This document shows positions 2,646 to 35,253 of a stretch of DNA of 64,000 bases, in pieces. Where the stretch lies: contig NZ_CP059732.1 of NCBI RefSeq assembly GCF_014117325.1, positions 6,089,001-6,153,000 on the forward strand, read 5' to 3'. The notes under the pieces were generated by a model, which had not been told where the DNA came from, made no database searches, and was given only the letters and a program-made list of their open reading frames with translations. Within the stretch, counting starts at the first letter, position 1. Every line of letters begins with the position of its first letter. The DNA comes from Spirosoma foliorum (GTDB lineage Bacteria; Bacteroidota; Bacteroidia; Cytophagales; Spirosomataceae). A program made the translations under genes and the position numbers.

Positions 2646-3452
2646 TTACTTTTTATAATACCGCTGAATACTTTCCGTTAGGACCTGATATACCTCAGAT
2701 ACACGCGGCTGATTGCTAAGATAGGCTAAATGGGCGTCAATCGTTGTCAGATCATTCCGTCGGGCCGGGCCGGTTTGCACATCGGCTGGATTTCGGGCCG
2801 CCAATCCTTTTCGGAATGTTTCGGCAATAATTGGCCGGAGTAAATCGAATTCTAACCCCTCCTGCGTTGTCAGGTCATGGGCTAGTGCTATCAGGTGATT
2901 GGTGAAATTACACGCTAGCACAGCGCCAATATGTAGGGTTCGCCGTTCTTCGGAGGTTATTAAATAGACGATATCACTAATCTCCTGCCCTAGCTGAACC
3001 AATATTTCTTCCGTTGTCGGATCAGAAGCTTCTATACACAGCGGAATTTCGTCAAAGGCTAAAAAGGGCTGACCCTTGGTGAAAGTTTGCAACGCATAGA
3101 AAACACCTGTTTGAACGGGCACATCGCTATAAATGCTCAGCCAATGTGCTAATGAATGAAGCGACTGCCCGCCAGACGTATGGACAACTATCGCATTTTC
3201 GGGAAGCACCAGACGTGAACAGACCTCTTCAAGTGCCTGATCGGACACTGCCAGAACAAACAGTCGGGAAGGACTGTCGGCAAAATTTAATTCAGAATGC
3301 GTACGAGCATCGTACAAATTACTGACTAATTGGCGGGAGTGTTGAAGCTGACGACTGTACACTTCATTAATGTGGTGCCCTGCATTCTCCAGCGCTGGCG
3401 CTAAGTGCCAGGCGAGATTTCCGGCACCGATAAACGAAATTTCCATAGCCAA
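2646..3452 (-). CDS. Rossmann-like/DUF2520 domain protein
   Basis: 268 residues. The N-terminus carries a dinucleotide-binding loop GAGNLA (residues 9-14), followed by a Rossmann half like that of ketopantoate reductase or pyrroline-5-carboxylate reductase. The C-terminal helical half (about 140-260) matches the DUF2520 pattern, with HIGAVLACNFTNHL near residue 174. This family is common in Bacteroidota; the substrate is not established. The Met at residue 3 is an equally good start. Confidence 0.85.
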   Translation of the reverse strand: MAMEISFIGAGNLAWHLAPALENAGHHINEVYSRQLQHSRQLVSNLYDARTHSELNFADSPSRLFVLAVSDQALEEVCSRLVLPENAIVVHTSGGQSLHSLAHWLSIYSDVPVQTGVFYALQTFTKGQPFLAFDEIPLCIEASDPTTEEILVQLGQEISDIVYLITSEERRTLHIGAVLACNFTNHLIALAHDLTTQEGLEFDLLRPIIAETFRKGLAARNPADVQTGPARRNDLTTIDAHLAYLSNQPRVSEVYQVLTESIQRYYKK

Positions 3453-28867: not shown

Positions 28868-28908
28868 AATCATAGTCAGTCAAATCAATCATAAAAATCC
28901 CGGTTCAG
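28868..28908 (-). repeat. Repeat family B, copy 2 (inverted)
   Basis: The reverse complement reads CTGAACCGGGATTT then GACTGACTATGATT, pairing with copy 1 across a 67-bp spacer. Confidence 0.75.
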
Positions 28909-28912
28909 AAAA

Positions 28913-30100
28913 GTGATTATCCCTCTTGCTCTCCGCGCTGATCAAACGCAGGAGTATTATTTTTCAGTGAAGTTGGCCGAAGTCCGTCGGATACAGGCGA
29001 CTGGTCATGATGTGATTAACCTTGGCATTGGCAATCCTGATATGATGCCTTCGGCCAATACAATCGATGCGCTTATTCAGTCGGCACAACAGCCTACTTC
29101 GCACGGCTATCAAAACTATAAAGGTACGCCCGCCCTACGACAGGCTATTGCCCAATTCTATAGTCATACATACGGTGTTGCCCTTGACCCCGAAACGGAA
29201 ATTTTACCGTTAATCGGTTCTAAAGAAGGCATCACACATATTTCCCTCACCTACCTGAATGAAGGCGATGGCGTACTGGTTCCAGAGCTGGGTTATCCGG
29301 CCTATCGGGCCGTCAGTCAGATGGTTGGGGCCAAGGTTCATGAATATCCACTGCTGGAACATGCTGGCTGGCAACCCGATTGGGAAGCCATGACCGATTT
29401 ATTAGCCGCATTGCCTGCTTCCGAAAAAACTAAAATCATTTGGCTCAATTACCCGCACATGCCCACGGGTGCTCCCGCTACTCACGCGTTGTTTGAGCGT
29501 GCGGTACGGTTTGCGCATGACAACCGAGTATTGTTATGCCACGACAACCCCTATAGCCTGATTCTGAATAAAAAACCACCGATTAGCCTATTGTCGGTCG
29601 ATGGAGCGAAAGAGGTGGCTGTGGAGTTGAACTCATTGAGCAAATCGCACAACATGGCAGGCTGGCGTATTGGCTGGATGGCGGGAGCCAAAGCGTATGT
29701 CGATGCTGTGTTAACGATAAAAAGTAATGTTGACTCGGGCCAGTTTAAGCCGCTCATGGACGCTGCGACCGAAGCATTGGGCAACTCTGACGACTGGCAC
29801 TGGGAGCGTAACGCTGTCTATCAGGGTCGCCTGGATGCCGTTCATGCCCTTCTGGATGCGCTTGATTGTAGCTATTCTACCGATCAGGAAGGTCTATTTA
29901 TCTGGGCCAAACTACCCGATTCGGTTGAATCAGCCGAAACCCTAGTCAACGATCTGCTGACAAAAAAGCACGTTTTCATTGCGCCCGGCTTCATTTTTGG
30001 GCCTAAAGGAAATCGATACGTGCGAGTATCGTTATGCGTGCCCGAAGACCGTATCCGAACCGCAACTGAACGGATTTTGAACCGGAATTTTTTTGATTGA
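28913..30100 (+). CDS. Class I/II aminotransferase
   Basis: 395 residues from a GTG start. Fold-type I PLP enzyme: NLGIGNPD near the N-terminus, the substrate-side NYPHMPTGA, and the Schiff-base Lys244 in SLSKSHNMAGWRIGW. It resembles the LL-diaminopimelate/aspartate aminotransferase branch. Position just before tyrA suggests aromatic amino acid synthesis (transamination of prephenate or 4-hydroxyphenylpyruvate), but this is inference. Its last residues lie in repeat B copy 3. Confidence 0.85.
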   Translation: MIIPLALRADQTQEYYFSVKLAEVRRIQATGHDVINLGIGNPDMMPSANTIDALIQSAQQPTSHGYQNYKGTPALRQAIAQFYSHTYGVALDPETEILPLIGSKEGITHISLTYLNEGDGVLVPELGYPAYRAVSQMVGAKVHEYPLLEHAGWQPDWEAMTDLLAALPASEKTKIIWLNYPHMPTGAPATHALFERAVRFAHDNRVLLCHDNPYSLILNKKPPISLLSVDGAKEVAVELNSLSKSHNMAGWRIGWMAGAKAYVDAVLTIKSNVDSGQFKPLMDAATEALGNSDDWHWERNAVYQGRLDAVHALLDALDCSYSTDQEGLFIWAKLPDSVESAETLVNDLLTKKHVFIAPGFIFGPKGNRYVRVSLCVPEDRIRTATERILNRNFFD

Positions 30101-30119
30101 ACTGATTGGCTATGATTTT
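30077..30119 (+). repeat. Repeat family B, copy 3
   Basis: Reads TTGAACCGGAATTT, then GATTGGCTATGATTTT, a diverged copy of copy 1. It covers the aminotransferase 3' end and is the left arm flanking the GxxExxY gene. Confidence 0.7.
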
Positions 30120-30144
30120 CAGCAGAGACCATAAAAGGTTAGTA

Positions 30145-30537
30145 TCAAGGCCTGAATTTTTTATTTAAAAGTCGTTTAAACTGTAGACTTGAACAGCCAA
30201 AATTAATGAGCATACCTACCTCAAGATTATAAGCTTCCAAATAGTTAATAGCCTGAGCCAAATGATCGTCATTGAGAGTAGTAATTGCTTTTAATTCAAC
30301 AGAGACCACGTTTTCAATCAGAAAATCAACCCTACGAGAGCCGATATGCCTTCCTTTGAAGAAAATCGGCATATCGTATTCACGAGCGAAACCAATACTA
30401 CATTCCTCTAATTCTATTGCTAATGCTCGTTGATAAATAACTTCTTGAAATCCGCTCCCCAGTATCTTATGTACTTCAAATGCACACCCAATTACTTTAC
30501 TCGTCAACTCTGAGTATTTGTATTCTGCTTTAATCAT
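30145..30537 (-). CDS. GxxExxY protein (PD-(D/E)XK-like)
   Basis: 130 residues from the Met at 30537; a start at 30588 would add 17 unrelated residues. The name-giving motif is GFQEVIY, and RVDFLIENVVSVELKA matches the nuclease-like core (D, E-x-K) of this superfamily. Its biochemical role is not established, though the fold hints at nuclease ancestry. It is opposite to its neighbours and bracketed by inverted copies of repeat B, which suggests insertion. Confidence 0.88.
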   Translation of the reverse strand: MIKAEYKYSELTSKVIGCAFEVHKILGSGFQEVIYQRALAIELEECSIGFAREYDMPIFFKGRHIGSRRVDFLIENVVSVELKAITTLNDDHLAQAINYLEAYNLEVGMLINFGCSSLQFKRLLNKKFRP

Positions 30538-30602
30538 ACTTCTGATGGTAGTCACTTGGCAAGATAATAATTGCAAATCACTAGCCATCAGTATAATTAA
30601 CG

Positions 30603-30643
30603 AATCAAAGTCAGTCAGTTAAATCATAAAAATCCCGGTTCAG
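30603..30643 (-). repeat. Repeat family B, copy 4 (inverted)
   Basis: The reverse complement reads CTGAACCGGGATTT and ends GACTGACTTTGATT. Its last base touches the tyrA ATG, so the tyrA 5' leader is made of this repeat. Confidence 0.75.
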
Positions 30644-31501
30644 ATGACTGTTTCCATTATTGGCATAGGTTTATTAGGTGGCTCATTCGCCCTGGCGATA
30701 CGTGAGAAATACCCAAAAATGCATTTTATTGGCGTCGACGCGTCGCCCGTAAATGGTCAGTTGGCGTTGGCAAAAGGTATTGTCGACGAAGTTCTGCCGC
30801 TGGCCGAAGCGGTAGCCCAAAGCACACTCGTTGTGATGGCCACGCCCGTTAACACGATCATCGATCTGTTGCCGACAGTGCTCGATCATCTGCCAACGGG
30901 TGCTACCATCATCGACTTAGGTTCTACCAAAGAGTTAATTTGTACCATAGCCGACGCCCACGAAAAACGAGCACAGTTTGTGGCCGTACACCCTATGGCC
31001 GGTACCGAAAACTCAGGACCAGGCGCTGCGTTCAAGGAACTGCTCCCCGGCAAAAACCTTATCATCTGCGACCGGGAGAAAAGTAACGCCGACAGCCTGA
31101 CGCTTGTTGAGAGTCTATTCCGGGATATAGGCATGAAATTGTTTTATATGACGCCAAAGGAGCACGATCTGCACCTGGCTTATGTCTCACACCTAAGCCA
31201 TATCAGCGCCTTTGCACTTGGCCTAACTGTGCTGGAAAAAGAGAAAGACGAACAAGCCATTTTCGACATGGCCAGTACGGGTTTCAGCTCGACAGTTCGT
31301 TTAGCGAAAAGTTCACCACAGATGTGGGCCCCCATCTTCGACCAGAATCGCACGAACGTATCGGATGCACTAGCCGCTTACATCGATTTTTTACAGCAGT
31401 TTAAGACCGTAATCGACACCCAGGACCTTCAAACGTCACTGGACTTCATGCAGCGGGCCAACGTCATCCGACGGGTACTAGACGGAATTGAGAAACGGTA
31501 A
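30644..31501 (+). CDS. tyrA: Prephenate dehydrogenase
   Basis: 285 residues. TyrA oxidatively decarboxylates prephenate to 4-hydroxyphenylpyruvate for tyrosine. The NAD loop is IIGIGLLGGS (5-14); AVHPMAGTENSGPGAA and the later YVSHLSHISAFAL are prephenate dehydrogenase signatures. There is no ACT domain, so tyrosine feedback may be weak. The last 60 bp recur 560 bp downstream beyond a toxin-antitoxin pair. Confidence 0.93.
   Translation: MTVSIIGIGLLGGSFALAIREKYPKMHFIGVDASPVNGQLALAKGIVDEVLPLAEAVAQSTLVVMATPVNTIIDLLPTVLDHLPTGATIIDLGSTKELICTIADAHEKRAQFVAVHPMAGTENSGPGAAFKELLPGKNLIICDREKSNADSLTLVESLFRDIGMKLFYMTPKEHDLHLAYVSHLSHISAFALGLTVLEKEKDEQAIFDMASTGFSSTVRLAKSSPQMWAPIFDQNRTNVSDALAAYIDFLQQFKTVIDTQDLQTSLDFMQRANVIRRVLDGIEKR
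31442..31501 (+). repeat. Direct repeat: tyrA 3' end, copy 1
   Basis: The 60 bp ending at the tyrA stop match 32002-32061 at 58 of 60 positions. Both differences are third-codon and synonymous. Confidence 0.95.
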
Positions 31502-31528
31502 ATGAGTATATTTGGTAAAAAAAATACC

Positions 31529-31708
31529 ATGACAAAGACAATTGTTCAGGAGTCATTAGAGAAAATGCCGGACGAATTTCCGGTAGAAGAATTGATCGAA
31601 CGTCTGTTATTCGTTCAAAACGTACAGGAAGGGTTGCTACAATCTGAACGTGGGGAAACTGTACCTCTTGACGAAGTACGTCAACGTTTGAGAAAATGGT
31701 CAACATAA
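31529..31708 (+). CDS. Antitoxin of a RelE/ParE-type pair
   Basis: 59 residues from the Met at 31529 (an in-frame Met at 31502 directly follows the tyrA stop). It is acidic and helical (SLEKMPDEFPVEELIERLLF), with the short C-terminal DEVRQRLRKW usual in such antitoxins. It overlaps the toxin by 13 bp, the classic antitoxin-toxin arrangement. It lies wholly within the segment bounded by tyrA 3'-end repeats. Confidence 0.75.
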   Translation: MTKTIVQESLEKMPDEFPVEELIERLLFVQNVQEGLLQSERGETVPLDEVRQRLRKWST

Positions 31709-32001
31709 CCTTTACGAATCGAGCAGTTGCTGATCTTGATGCCATTGGCGAATACCATGCTCATTATTCGCCTGGCTATGCCAGTCATTTGCAGGATGCG
31801 ATCATCGACAAAACAGGACTACTTCGCCAGCAGCCAGAAATGGGGCGTAAAGTCCCTGAATTTGATCTTCCTTACCTGCGTGAATTGATTCATAAATCCT
31901 ATCGGATCGTTTATAAAATTGTCAGTCCAAATCAGATTGACATTATTACAATTCAGCATAGCTCACGTAATCTATCGGAACGTTTTTTTGATGCCGAATA
32001 A
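31696..32001 (+). CDS. RelE/ParE family toxin
   Basis: 101 residues, normal size. The pattern VNITFTNRAVADLDAIGEYHA at the start, LRQQPEMGRKV in the middle and the final YKIVSPNQIDIITIQHSSRN fit the RelE/ParE superfamily. Members are mRNA interferases or gyrase poisons; which applies is not clear. The stop lies immediately before the second tyrA 3'-end copy. Confidence 0.88.
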   Translation: MVNITFTNRAVADLDAIGEYHAHYSPGYASHLQDAIIDKTGLLRQQPEMGRKVPEFDLPYLRELIHKSYRIVYKIVSPNQIDIITIQHSSRNLSERFFDAE

Positions 32002-32061
32002 GACTTCATGCAGCGGGCCAACGTTATCCGACGGGTACTAGACGGAATTGAGAAGCGGTAA
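32002..32061 (+). repeat. Direct repeat: tyrA 3' end, copy 2
   Basis: A stranded copy of the last 60 bp of tyrA including the stop codon. It has no start and is not a gene itself. Only positions equivalent to one Val and one Lys third base differ. Confidence 0.95.
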
Positions 32062-32169
32062 ACTCTAAAACTTTTTACACTTGCCGACACAAAACGGATT
32101 TCTATTGGTTTATAGCCTACAGGACACCACGAACTGGTACGTCCCGGAACCTGAATCAAGTAAATACCT

Positions 32170-33048
32170 ATGCAAGCAAGTGAACAATCAGCCGGGTCAA
32201 ACGTGGCCGCACAGGCTGGTACAATTACCATCGGGAACGATTTAACAGTTAACCGTATGGCTTACGGAGCCATGCGTATTACGGGAAATGGAATTTGGGG
32301 GCCACCCAAAGATCATGACGAAGCCATTCGCGTTTTAAAACGGTGCCTGGATCTAGGCATTAATTTTATCGATACGGCTGATAGCTACGGGCCTTATGTT
32401 TCGGAAGAACTTATTGCCGAAGCGCTCCACCCCTACCCCGACGGCTTAGTGATTGCCACCAAAGGGGGATTACTGCGTACAGGCCCCAATCAATGGCCAG
32501 TAGACGGAAGCCGAAAACACCTTCAGGAAGCCCTGGAAGGAAGCTTAAAACGTCTAAAAGTCGATCGAATCGATTTGTATCAATTGCACCGCTTCGATTC
32601 CAAAGTACCCTCCGACGAGTTTTTGAGTTTTTTGCAGGAAGCCCAGGAACAAGGTAAGATCAAACACATTGGTTTATCGGAAGTGAGTATCGACCAGATT
32701 GAAGAAGCGAAAAAATACTTCGAAGTCGTATCGGTACAAAACATGTACAACTTTGGCGAACAACGCTGGAATGATGTGCTGAAATACAGCGAACAGAACA
32801 ATATCGCCTTTATTCCGTGGTTTCCCCTCAACGCAGGGAACGTAGCCGCCGACAACGCCATCAAGAAAGTAGCCGCTCGCCACGGTGCAACCGATTATCA
32901 GATTGCCCTAGCCTGGTTATTAGCCGCTTCGCCTGCCATGCTTCCGATTGCCGGAACATCTTCTGTTAAGCACTTGGAAGAAAACATACAGGCGGCTACC
33001 ATCAAACTTACCGACGAAGATTTGCAGGATATGCCATTACCTAACTAA
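32170..33048 (+). CDS. Aldo/keto reductase
   Basis: 292 residues. Active-site tetrad: Asp/Tyr in FIDTADSYGPYV, Lys in ATKGG, His in YQLHRFD. The C-terminal AGTSSVKHLEENI is the cofactor pocket. It belongs to the NADPH-dependent oxidoreductase branch often called YdbC-like. It is unrelated to the preceding toxin-antitoxin pair and has its own terminator. Confidence 0.88.
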   Translation: MQASEQSAGSNVAAQAGTITIGNDLTVNRMAYGAMRITGNGIWGPPKDHDEAIRVLKRCLDLGINFIDTADSYGPYVSEELIAEALHPYPDGLVIATKGGLLRTGPNQWPVDGSRKHLQEALEGSLKRLKVDRIDLYQLHRFDSKVPSDEFLSFLQEAQEQGKIKHIGLSEVSIDQIEEAKKYFEVVSVQNMYNFGEQRWNDVLKYSEQNNIAFIPWFPLNAGNVAADNAIKKVAARHGATDYQIALAWLLAASPAMLPIAGTSSVKHLEENIQAATIKLTDEDLQDMPLPN

Positions 33049-33105
33049 GGTTTACGGTATTCAGTTTATGGTTCTAGGATGCTGTAATCCATAAATCGTA
33101 ATCTC

Positions 33106-33144
33106 AACAAAAAAGGGATGATCTGAGATCATCCCTTTTTTGTT
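33106..33144. terminator. Convergent-gene terminator
   Basis: 19-bp arms (33106-33124 and 33126-33144) with A- and T-runs at the base, between convergent genes. Confidence 0.85.
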
Positions 33145-33161
33145 GCACCGCTACTAACTAA

Positions 33162-33617
33162 CTAGGACACTTTTTCCAGTGAACTAATTTTATCATGCGC
33201 GATCTGCAGTTCGCTTAGCTGCTTTTGCAGGTCTTCTTTAATATAGGCTGGGATATGATCTTTGTCGATCGCGTCCTGATACGCTTCAATGGCCGCATTT
33301 TCGCCAAACTCAACCGAGCTCAACACGCTTTCGCGATCTTTACCTGTCAATGCGGTTTTAATATCAATCCACGCGCGGTGAATTTTGCTGGTTACATCGG
33401 TTGAGGTTGCATCCGATACAGCCGATCCATCAATCCGTACAATATGATCAGCTAGTTGGCTACGGAAGTTTTGGCTCTGAATAACATAATGCCGAAACAA
33501 ATCGTCCAGTTGGGCGTCTTCATTGTCTTCAATCGCCTTTTCATACCCTTGAATGCGATCGTTGTTGATTTTAACCAGCTCGTTGAGATCGTCAACAATT
33601 TCCTTATTCGTAATCAT
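33162..33617 (-). CDS. PA2169 family four-helix-bundle protein (DUF2383)
   Basis: 151 residues, all helical. LNELVKINNDRIQGYEKAIED at the start and FGENAAIEAYQDAID in helix four carry the Glu/His pattern of ferritin-like DUF2383 proteins. These are often stress-linked; whether it binds metal is not established. Confidence 0.85.
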   Translation of the reverse strand: MITNKEIVDDLNELVKINNDRIQGYEKAIEDNEDAQLDDLFRHYVIQSQNFRSQLADHIVRIDGSAVSDATSTDVTSKIHRAWIDIKTALTGKDRESVLSSVEFGENAAIEAYQDAIDKDHIPAYIKEDLQKQLSELQIAHDKISSLEKVS

Positions 33618-33822
33618 AACAGTTGAATTATATGAGTTGTAAACTCAAATTACAACCGAGTGTGCGCGCTATTGTTCACAAATAAGTAAAACTATGGGGT
33701 TCGATGAGGTAAAGGCACCTACCTATTTTAGTTTCTATAGATTCTAAATGTTCTTGTTGACTCTATAGGTACAATAAAATCAAAAGAAACTATAGAATCC
33801 AGAAAATCTATTTAACCAAGTA

Positions 33823-35253
33823 CTAATTGGTCGATGTAACACTACGTAATCGCAAATTCGACCCAGTTTCAAATTGGAGCTGATCTGGGGGGCTTGTCAG
33901 GCCTATCTGGGTGATAGCGCCATCCCAACCCGACAACTGGCTCGTATTAATTTCATAGGTACGAAACTGACCATCACCAATAATTGGGAAATCAGCATAT
34001 CGGCCAGGCATATCCATAAAATCATTTTCGTCGGGCTTTCGCCACACAAGTCGGGCTCTCGTTGCTTTGGTCTGAAAAGCTGCTTGTATATAAAGTTTCG
34101 GAACATTTGCCGCTTGCCAGAATGACATTGGACTCATAACCCGAAAGCTGGGGACGGCCGGATCATCCCGGTACCATCGAACGTTCAATTCATTCTGAAT
34201 TGGGTAGCCCTTGTCGCGAGTGCGCTTAAAGTACCAGCCTTGCCGGTCATTCACAAATTTATAGGTAGGCCCCCCAGGTGGTCGAGGCTGGGCATATGCA
34301 AACTGCCGGATATCATCTAAGTTACCAACCACCAAGGTGTACTCAAATTCATATTGCCCATTATGATCAATAACCAAATGGGGCTGGCTGTTTATATAAC
34401 CAGCAGGTACATCATATTCTCCGCCCACTCTAGTTACACCAAAGCCAGCCGACGCAAAGCGTACATCGTTGTACTTGTATATACCAACGCCCCGCCCTTC
34501 GGCGTTCAACAGCGCAATCCAGTTTTCGCTACCAAATCGATTCGTCATCTCCTGAGTCGTAAATTCAGAGACAGCATCATTTGTAAAAGGCTTCATCCCA
34601 CCATAGGTAATCATTCGGTAGTAAGGCCCGTTGAGGTATACGCAAGGCGCTTCCTGGGTTCGGGCTTCGTACTGAGTGGTATCGGCCCGATTAACAACAA
34701 GCCGGCACCGCACATGAATTGTATTGTCTTTAAGTTCAATCCAGTGTTCGTAATAACAATCGGCTGGTTCATTTAGCAAGGGCCATATCAGCGGGATTGT
34801 CTTGACATACAGCGTATTTTGCCCTTGTTGATAGCTAACTACCTGAGCGGGATTGTTATAATAATCACCCGTCTGCACAGGATTCCAACCAAGATTTCGC
34901 CATTGATAAACCGGGTCTTTTCCATTTACGCTATACGGATAAGGTCCAGCATACATTGACGTCTGTATCTGCCGACCCAGGTCATTATTGTTGACCATGT
35001 TAACGCTACTACCAGCTTCCGATAAATACGTAATGGCCCCTCCCGCATTAAGGTCAATACCTAACCGGATCTTATCGTTATCCAGATATAGCCGTTTTTG
35101 AGGAGACGTTTGTGTTTGACCCGGTAATCCGCCCGATGGTGGGTTCTGTACAACGGGCGCTTTGTTAGGATCTGCAGATGGATAATCACGAACGCAGGTG
35201 ACAGCCAAACTACTCAGCAGAACACAGATAAGCAGTAGATAAGGACGAACCAT
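33823..35253 (-). CDS. Uncharacterised lipoprotein, beta-sandwich-like
   Basis: 476 residues. The N-terminal signal ends with a lipobox-like LAVTC (Cys20). A Pro/Gly-rich linker (25-50) leads to about 420 residues of aromatic, strand-rich sequence (YYEHWIELKDNTIHVRCRL, WRNLGWNPVQTGDYY). The style is reminiscent of mutarotase- or carbohydrate-active enzyme folds, but no catalytic motif is identified. It is divergent from carB. Confidence 0.6.
   Translation of the reverse strand: MVRPYLLLICVLLSSLAVTCVRDYPSADPNKAPVVQNPPSGGLPGQTQTSPQKRLYLDNDKIRLGIDLNAGGAITYLSEAGSSVNMVNNNDLGRQIQTSMYAGPYPYSVNGKDPVYQWRNLGWNPVQTGDYYNNPAQVVSYQQGQNTLYVKTIPLIWPLLNEPADCYYEHWIELKDNTIHVRCRLVVNRADTTQYEARTQEAPCVYLNGPYYRMITYGGMKPFTNDAVSEFTTQEMTNRFGSENWIALLNAEGRGVGIYKYNDVRFASAGFGVTRVGGEYDVPAGYINSQPHLVIDHNGQYEFEYTLVVGNLDDIRQFAYAQPRPPGGPTYKFVNDRQGWYFKRTRDKGYPIQNELNVRWYRDDPAVPSFRVMSPMSFWQAANVPKLYIQAAFQTKATRARLVWRKPDENDFMDMPGRYADFPIIGDGQFRTYEINTSQLSGWDGAITQIGLTSPPDQLQFETGSNLRLRSVTSTN

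Follow-up and report, generated by a model that had tools for sequence, protein, structure and literature searches.

In the 64 000 bp window of the Spirosoma foliorum genome (G000) analysed here, the prephenate dehydrogenase gene tyrA (Pfam PF02153 and PF20463) lies on the forward strand at 30644–31501, and its 3' end is present twice. The final 60 bp of tyrA, including the stop codon (31442–31501, forward strand; copy 1, c1), recur as a direct repeat at 32002–32061 (copy 2, c2), a second tyrA 3' end that again includes the stop. The segments 31442–31502 and 32002–32062, spaced 560 bp apart, are identical at 59 of 61 positions (58/60 up to the tyrA stop), and the two differences, GTC/GTT and AAA/AAG, are both synonymous. 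Between c1 and c2 are only an antitoxin-like ORF of 59 aa (31529–31708, from the ORF list and without a Pfam family) and the gene for a 101 aa ParE/RelE-type toxin (31696–32001; PF05016, 2.4e-17), both on the forward strand, and the TAA stop codon of the toxin gene, which ends at 32001, directly adjoins c2. A TATATTTG box 6 bp 3' of the tyrA stop (31507–31514, forward strand) resembles TAnnTTTG, which we take to be the Bacteroidota -7 promoter box consensus. Downstream of c2 on the same strand, the ORF at 32170–33048, which we take from its sequence to encode an aldo/keto reductase, is the native downstream neighbour according to the ORF list and synteny. An earlier note on this DNA had described both the 60 bp duplication, with 58 identities and synonymous differences only, and a 560 bp integrase-free unit holding nothing other than a RelE/ParE-type toxin-antitoxin (TA) pair; the repeat and codon comparison confirmed the first description, and the ORFs and the PF05016 match the second.

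The toxin matches PF05016 at 63.7 bits (cut-off 23) and falls slightly under the cut-off for TIGR02385 (26.0 versus 27.9 bits). For the antitoxin-like ORF the best start is at 31529; an alternative ATG at 31502, upstream of the TATATTTG box, would give 68 aa. The two ORFs are co-directional and overlap by 13 bp at the toxin start. The antitoxin-like product has no Pfam match, and its match to the RelB-like NF048017 is sub-threshold (16.1 bits against a cut-off of 50). From the toxin family match and the overlapping small ORF, the tyrA pair is a predicted type II TA system of the ParE/RelE superfamily. It shares with known systems of this type the Pfam ParE_toxin domain and a small overlapping upstream ORF, but differs in that its antitoxin is below every curated Pfam and NCBIfam cut-off.

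The tyrA TA unit is single-copy in the 8.85 Mb G000 genome. When 464 kb of G000 (the window plus 20 evenly spaced 20 kb stretches) was scanned for direct repeats 250–3000 bp apart with a score of at least 19, the tyrA tail was, by reading of the repeat list, the sole repeat that copies a gene 3' end together with its stop. As no other such repeat was returned, we conclude that the tyrA repeat is not due to chance. Two perfect direct repeats were found near gene ends in the same genome, one of 33 bp spaced 722 bp (L248, 9552–9584) and one of 32 bp spaced 2122 bp (L243, 10634–10665). No inverted repeats bound the tyrA unit, as none of the five pairs of at least 14 nt found in 29500–34000 lies at its edges, and no integrase or recombinase gene is present between the repeats. 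The hallmarks of an insertion sequence or MITE, namely terminal inverted repeats and a short target duplication, were likewise absent, the repeat being 60 bp.

The tyrA gene was found in 35 of 36 Spirosoma genomes, one per species, such that all comparisons are between species. Its 3' end is visible in 34; G028, where it is missing, and G026, which has no tyrA, were left out of the tail counts. A TA pair lies behind tyrA in 8 of the 34, and the pair-bearing genomes include a Spirosoma MAG, S. spitsbergense, S. fluviale, S. sordidisoli, S. lacussanchae and S. telluris. Scanning 1300 bp downstream for tail copies end-anchored at the tyrA stop returned copies ending at a stop in seven of the eight pair-bearing loci (15, 21, 21, 26, 27, 40 and 60 bp; scores 15–55) and in none of the 26 pair-free loci, where the best chance score was 11. 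The eighth pair-bearer, S. telluris (G032), has a broken pair, no tail copy and no reductase in view. A TAnnTTTG box follows the tyrA stop at 6–16 bp in seven of the eight Spirosoma pairs; G032 carries TATATCTG in its place.

The empty sites with a single 3' end that the earlier note had proposed looking for do exist, and they hold no tail remnant. Conversely, a duplicated tail in relatives that lack the pair was not found (0/26), and the pair is not fixed at this locus (8/34). Of the 26 pair-free genomes, 18 have the reductase gene immediately after tyrA, and the other 8 have something else there. At these 18 empty sites tyrA and the reductase gene are 105–110 bp apart in 12, 47–49 bp in 2 and 90, 137, 145 or 202 bp in the remaining 4. 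The distances from the c2 stop to the reductase gene in the seven tail-bearing genomes (108, 105, 109, 102, 108, 48 and 48 bp) resemble this spacing, and the left edge of the unit is at the stop in all seven. In G025 and G012 (L064 and L065), approximately 3.1 kb of other sequence, which begins directly at the tyrA stop, separates tyrA from the reductase gene, and no tail copy was found in the 1300 bp 3' of tyrA.

Among the seven bracketed loci, c2 is closest to the tyrA of its own genome in four and tied for closest in three (G008, G020 and G021, the last with only 15 nt). When tails were permuted over genomes using 21 nt from five lineages, the true pairing gave 5 mismatches against a mean of 14.2 and was the best of 120; with 15 nt from six lineages, 6 of the 720 permutations were equally good, the true pairing among them. 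This likeness of c2 to its own tyrA, the patchy presence of the pair and the lineage-varying tail lengths would fit a minimal mobile addiction cassette that reached tyrA recently and repeatedly, independently in each lineage. We consider such a history distinctly improbable, as it is at odds with the divergence of the pair itself. In related species the DNA identities of the TA genes and tyrA are 0.95 and 0.95 (G008/G020), 0.82 and 0.82 (G007/G015) and 0.78 and 0.81 (G000/G032); between distant species TA identity is mostly 0.63–0.72 against 0.75–0.80 for tyrA. At fourfold sites, in a comparison where some TA pieces carried a few extra codons and from which G032 (broken genes) and the G021 TA genes were left out, the least saturated values were 0.13 for TA versus 0.15 for tyrA in G008/G020 and 0.52 versus 0.49 in G007/G015, while five other species pairs gave 0.62–0.69 for TA and 0.47–0.50 for tyrA. 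Higher TA divergence in distant species would be expected from faster evolution or from exchange.

The phylogenies also argue against repeated arrivals. With G032 omitted and corrected pieces used, the best of 945 topologies for the seven TA pairs matched the tree that four genes give for these genomes; nine topologies were not rejected, and one TA tree was built from the toxin only. In the other direction, the 35-genome species topology is rejected for the TA genes in an AU test (p 0.0005), as the pair joins G000 to G021 and three species trees place G000 nearer to G007/G015 (support 62–93%). At least one transfer of the tyrA pair between lineages may have occurred. G000 and G032 carry sister pairs, and G003, the sister of G000, and G022 are pair-free; G007 and G015 also carry sister pairs, and G027 and G009 are pair-free at tyrA. 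The simplest explanation for these four pair-free genomes among the sister pairs is that exact loss occurred at least twice. Outside the genus, a Rudanella MAG has a related pair behind tyrA, without a tail copy and with a different neighbour gene; its placement in the TA tree has support values of 0.096 and 64. The left edge and the promoter-like box are common to Rudanella, which further counts against separate arrivals in each lineage. As the closest species show about equal divergence for the TA genes and for tyrA, and as a related pair lies behind tyrA in Rudanella, the tyrA pair looks like a mostly old resident that has been lost many times. Recent arrival of a mobile cassette, the main reading offered in the earlier note, was rejected as the principal story at tyrA on the same grounds.

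When the DNA around 86 of the 87 PF05016 entries in the genus was compared, a gene-end bracket was found at 11. Seven are the tyrA loci, and the same architecture, which the earlier note had suggested searching for beside other genes with duplicated 3' ends, occurs behind four other Spirosoma genes: sufS in G009 (43/43 bp), mutS in G024 (107 bp), a gene for a 184 aa protein in G006 (38/38 bp) and a gene at G024 C187 (41 bp). A sub-threshold histidine-kinase match of the 184 aa gene was disregarded. All 11 repeats derive from the gene upstream, which is co-directional with the pair, and the right edge lies 0–32 bp past the toxin stop. In 10 of the 11 the left edge coincides with the stop of that gene or is no more than about 7 bp from it; the exception is G024 C187, where the repeat stops about 23 codons inside the gene. 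A different cargo is bracketed in G001 and G021, where a two-gene PDC-M63A-like cassette, a candidate anti-phage system judging from its sequence, lies behind mutS between 39 bp tails (L193 and L197, about 2757–3426). There, c2 and the sequence downstream of it resemble the empty site in G014. Repeats at L256 and L265 were rejected as gene-end brackets because they are non-coding, and those at L335, L341 and L349, which look dispersed or integron-like, and a tandem-TA repeat at G030 C157 were not counted.

Replacement 3' ends are typical of integrative elements that carry an integrase, and the tyrA unit could on that account be the scar of a larger element that formerly included one, as the earlier note had also suggested; the intervening stretch of about 3.1 kb that separates tyrA from the reductase gene in G025 and G012 could be cited in its favour. 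This origin is extremely improbable. The tail-bracketed ParE units hold only the TA genes and the 0–32 bp after the toxin stop, the other bracketed cargo is also of two genes, and G025 and G012 are without a tail copy within the 1300 bp scanned. The apparent long residence of the pair and the absence of a recombinase gene from the unit also speak against it.

The genes with brackets elsewhere in the genus are standing slots for pairs. A pair is present between sufS and sufE in 19 of the 30 loci read, and 18 of these 19 have no tail copy; in the junctions viewed, the toxin stop is a few bases 5' of sufE. By coordinates, pairs are also found behind mutS in five genomes and behind the 184 aa gene in six. 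The corresponding sufS-sufE gap in G000 (L163) is 417 bp, and its contents have no toxin match. Alleles are swapped in this slot, since the sufS toxins of G008 and G020, two sister species, are clearly different. Five genomes from other genera also have the sufS slot occupied, and ParE-type pairs were seen in it in Larkinella (L344 and L347). In G359, from another genus of the family (L277), a G009-like pair lies between sufS and sufE; there are two tandem ParE-type pairs at this position, the second of which has a toxin that is 77–97% identical to that of G009 and split over two frames. This similarity, together with the identity of the G009 tails to that of the pair-free sister G027, makes it likely that the G009 sufS pair is a recent gain from the same slot elsewhere. 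Donors with a module already behind the same gene are thus present both for the sufS slot, in other genera, and for the tyrA slot, in Rudanella.

The two tail copies give differing signs of their origin at different loci. In G009, c1 and c2 of the sufS bracket both equal the tail of the pair-free sister G027, in the G024 mutS bracket both copies are lineage-specific, and in G006 and G001/G021 c1 seems to end in bases from the cassette side rather than from the target. The main rival to entry guided by homology is insertion with a long target duplication, in which an unknown reaction at a staggered break would duplicate 15–110 bp and selection would spare the insertions that leave the host gene intact. 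Taken alone, G009 fits such a duplication equally well, and long, variable duplications of about 100 bp have been described for restriction-modification systems, according to the part of PMC3874152 available. We nevertheless regard a target duplication as unlikely overall. Random events should be spread to either side of the stop and among different genes, whereas all seven tyrA loci have their left edge at the stop, and this slot holds the same toxin clade even in a second genus. The cassette-side ends of c1 in G006 and G001/G021 are also against it, as are the differences between c1 and c2, which are synonymous like those of gene ends from different genomes.

These differences were examined in trimmed, well-matching repeats only, with G288, from outside the genus, not included. 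Across the seven tyrA loci, G024 mutS and G021 mutS (shared with G001 and counted together), 20 of 21 are synonymous, where about 32% would be expected (P ~1.5e-9), and with G024 C187 added the count for Spirosoma is 22 of 23. The G009 and G006 repeats have no differences. Just beyond the 38 bp repeat in G006 there is a nonsynonymous change, GAC TTG versus GAG GTA, in codons that also vary among relatives. The synonymous bias on which the earlier note had remarked at tyrA therefore holds beyond that locus, and pure neutral decay of c2 was rejected in Spirosoma on the 22/23 count. The two copies at G024 mutS show 10 differences over 105 nt, all of them synonymous, where far more would be expected of a neutral c2 of equal age; of 29 relatives, 27 are nearer to c2 than to c1. 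As this bias exists though no reading frame connects c2 to tyrA, it suggests that c2 was a working gene end for most of its past or is repeatedly replaced by one. Retention of c2 as a cis-acting element for the downstream reductase gene, such as a promoter, an RNA or a coupling signal, would account for its ending at the stop in all seven tyrA loci with the native spacing to the reductase gene kept. We consider this very unlikely, since the differences track codon synonymy and the retained length ranges from 15 to 60 bp.

Our preferred explanation, which we hold to be moderately probable, is that an integrase-free ParE pair occupies slots that are each specific to a gene, with homology to the gene end as its entry route and the repeat as its precise exit. 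Entry guided by homology is favoured because of the slot specificity and the cassette-side bases that end c1 in G006 and G001/G021. DNA carrying a gene end and the pair might circularise and integrate by one crossover, or might be joined through one homologous and one illegitimate end. Entry at the gene end would leave the host gene intact and place a second tail beside an untouched downstream gene, and the element would not need a recombinase of its own. The pair would be removed exactly if the tails recombined with each other or with pair-free alleles in the population, and the same exchanges could keep replacing tail copies with working gene ends, sparing c2 from decay. The putative addictive effect of the pair would oppose its loss. 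The route of entry, the toxicity and the recombination steps are all inferred. Repeats of 15–60 bp are short for efficient RecA-dependent exchange, which counts against recombination between the tails, and most slot-resident pairs are without a tail copy, as at sufS, which counts against the homology model. What had been observed at tyrA is correct and more general than that single locus, and the interpretation first placed on it is half right: the empty sites, the brackets at other genes and the synonymous bias stand, and recent arrival and the scar of a larger element are not supported.

Several known systems share parts of this arrangement. Restriction-modification systems inserted with a long target duplication (Nobusato 2000 and Furuta 2010, as cited in the part of PMC3874152 available) have in common with the tyrA-type units a small addiction module, no transposase, a long and variable target repeat and an empty site with one copy. 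On the same partial account, the units described here differ in that their cargo is a type II TA pair rather than a restriction-modification system, their repeats are the 3' end of a host gene up to or near the stop with its own toxin clade for each gene, and their copies stay alike under coding constraint. In E. coli crosses, circular molecules integrated by a single crossover gave homologous gene-end duplications of 109–950 bp in 14 sequenced clones, and homology-facilitated illegitimate recombination has been proposed for Vibrio effector-immunity modules (PMC3240628 and PMC5361080, each from the part available). In both, one homologous gene end guides entry, and in the former a gene end is partially duplicated beside the insert. 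These precedents are, as far as the available parts of the papers go, laboratory crosses or a proposal for an effector locus, whereas the Spirosoma loci hold natural TA pairs between repeats of 15–107 bp, and those at tyrA (15–60 bp) are shorter than in the E. coli clones (PMC3240628). A ParE/ParD-like pair between 152 bp direct repeats also lies behind the Microcystis orthocaspase gene MaOC1; like the Spirosoma pairs it is ParE-type, behind a gene and flanked by direct repeats, but in the available part of that report (PMC7935541) the first repeat begins 14 bp past the stop and contains an inverted repeat, and is not a copy of a coding end. Among the literature matches listed, in which subscription papers are mostly not represented, no title or abstract opening mentions a TA pair enclosed by two copies of a gene 3' end. 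The closest precedents are insertion with long target duplication and single-crossover integration of circular DNA.

For the question of how solitary chromosomal TA pairs without mobility genes spread, persist and are lost, the tyrA locus offers a concrete route, in and out via a copy of the neighbour's own end with both neighbours intact, and the same bracket around a candidate anti-phage cassette suggests a wider use. More tentatively, gene-end bracketed cassettes could form a general class of recombinase-free mobile addiction and defence units, each tied to one host gene, with the copied 3' end as attachment sequence, alternating through host recombination between an integrated and an excised or absent state, and with TA or anti-phage cargo interchangeable; we see this as possible rather than probable. 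When 341 genomes of the order were searched, 1 of 22 relatives of the tyrA toxin outside the genus was bracketed by a gene end. This is in G288, a genome from a different family, where a ParE pair follows an epimerase gene whose end is duplicated over about 165 bp, an arrangement seen only in G288 among the 30 congeneric loci read. Its c2 has a 34 bp loss, and 3 of 10 changed codons are nonsynonymous.

A further repeat lies close to tyrA in the window. Imperfect 51 bp copies (84%) at 28868–28918 and 30603–30653, which contain AAATCCCGGTTCAGA, precede an aminotransferase gene and tyrA, respectively. Between the aminotransferase gene and tyrA is a GxxExxY gene (TIGR04256, PDDEXK_3) at 30145–30588 on the minus strand. 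Motifs like AATCCTGGTTCAG flank the GxxExxY gene in G024 (L062), and the repeat there was rejected as a second tail duplication as it reads as a dispersed motif. Given these motifs, the 51 bp repeat appears to be of a dispersed kind associated with GxxExxY genes, and a GxxExxY-gene match is present beside tyrA, in either orientation, in 16 of the 35 loci in the genus.
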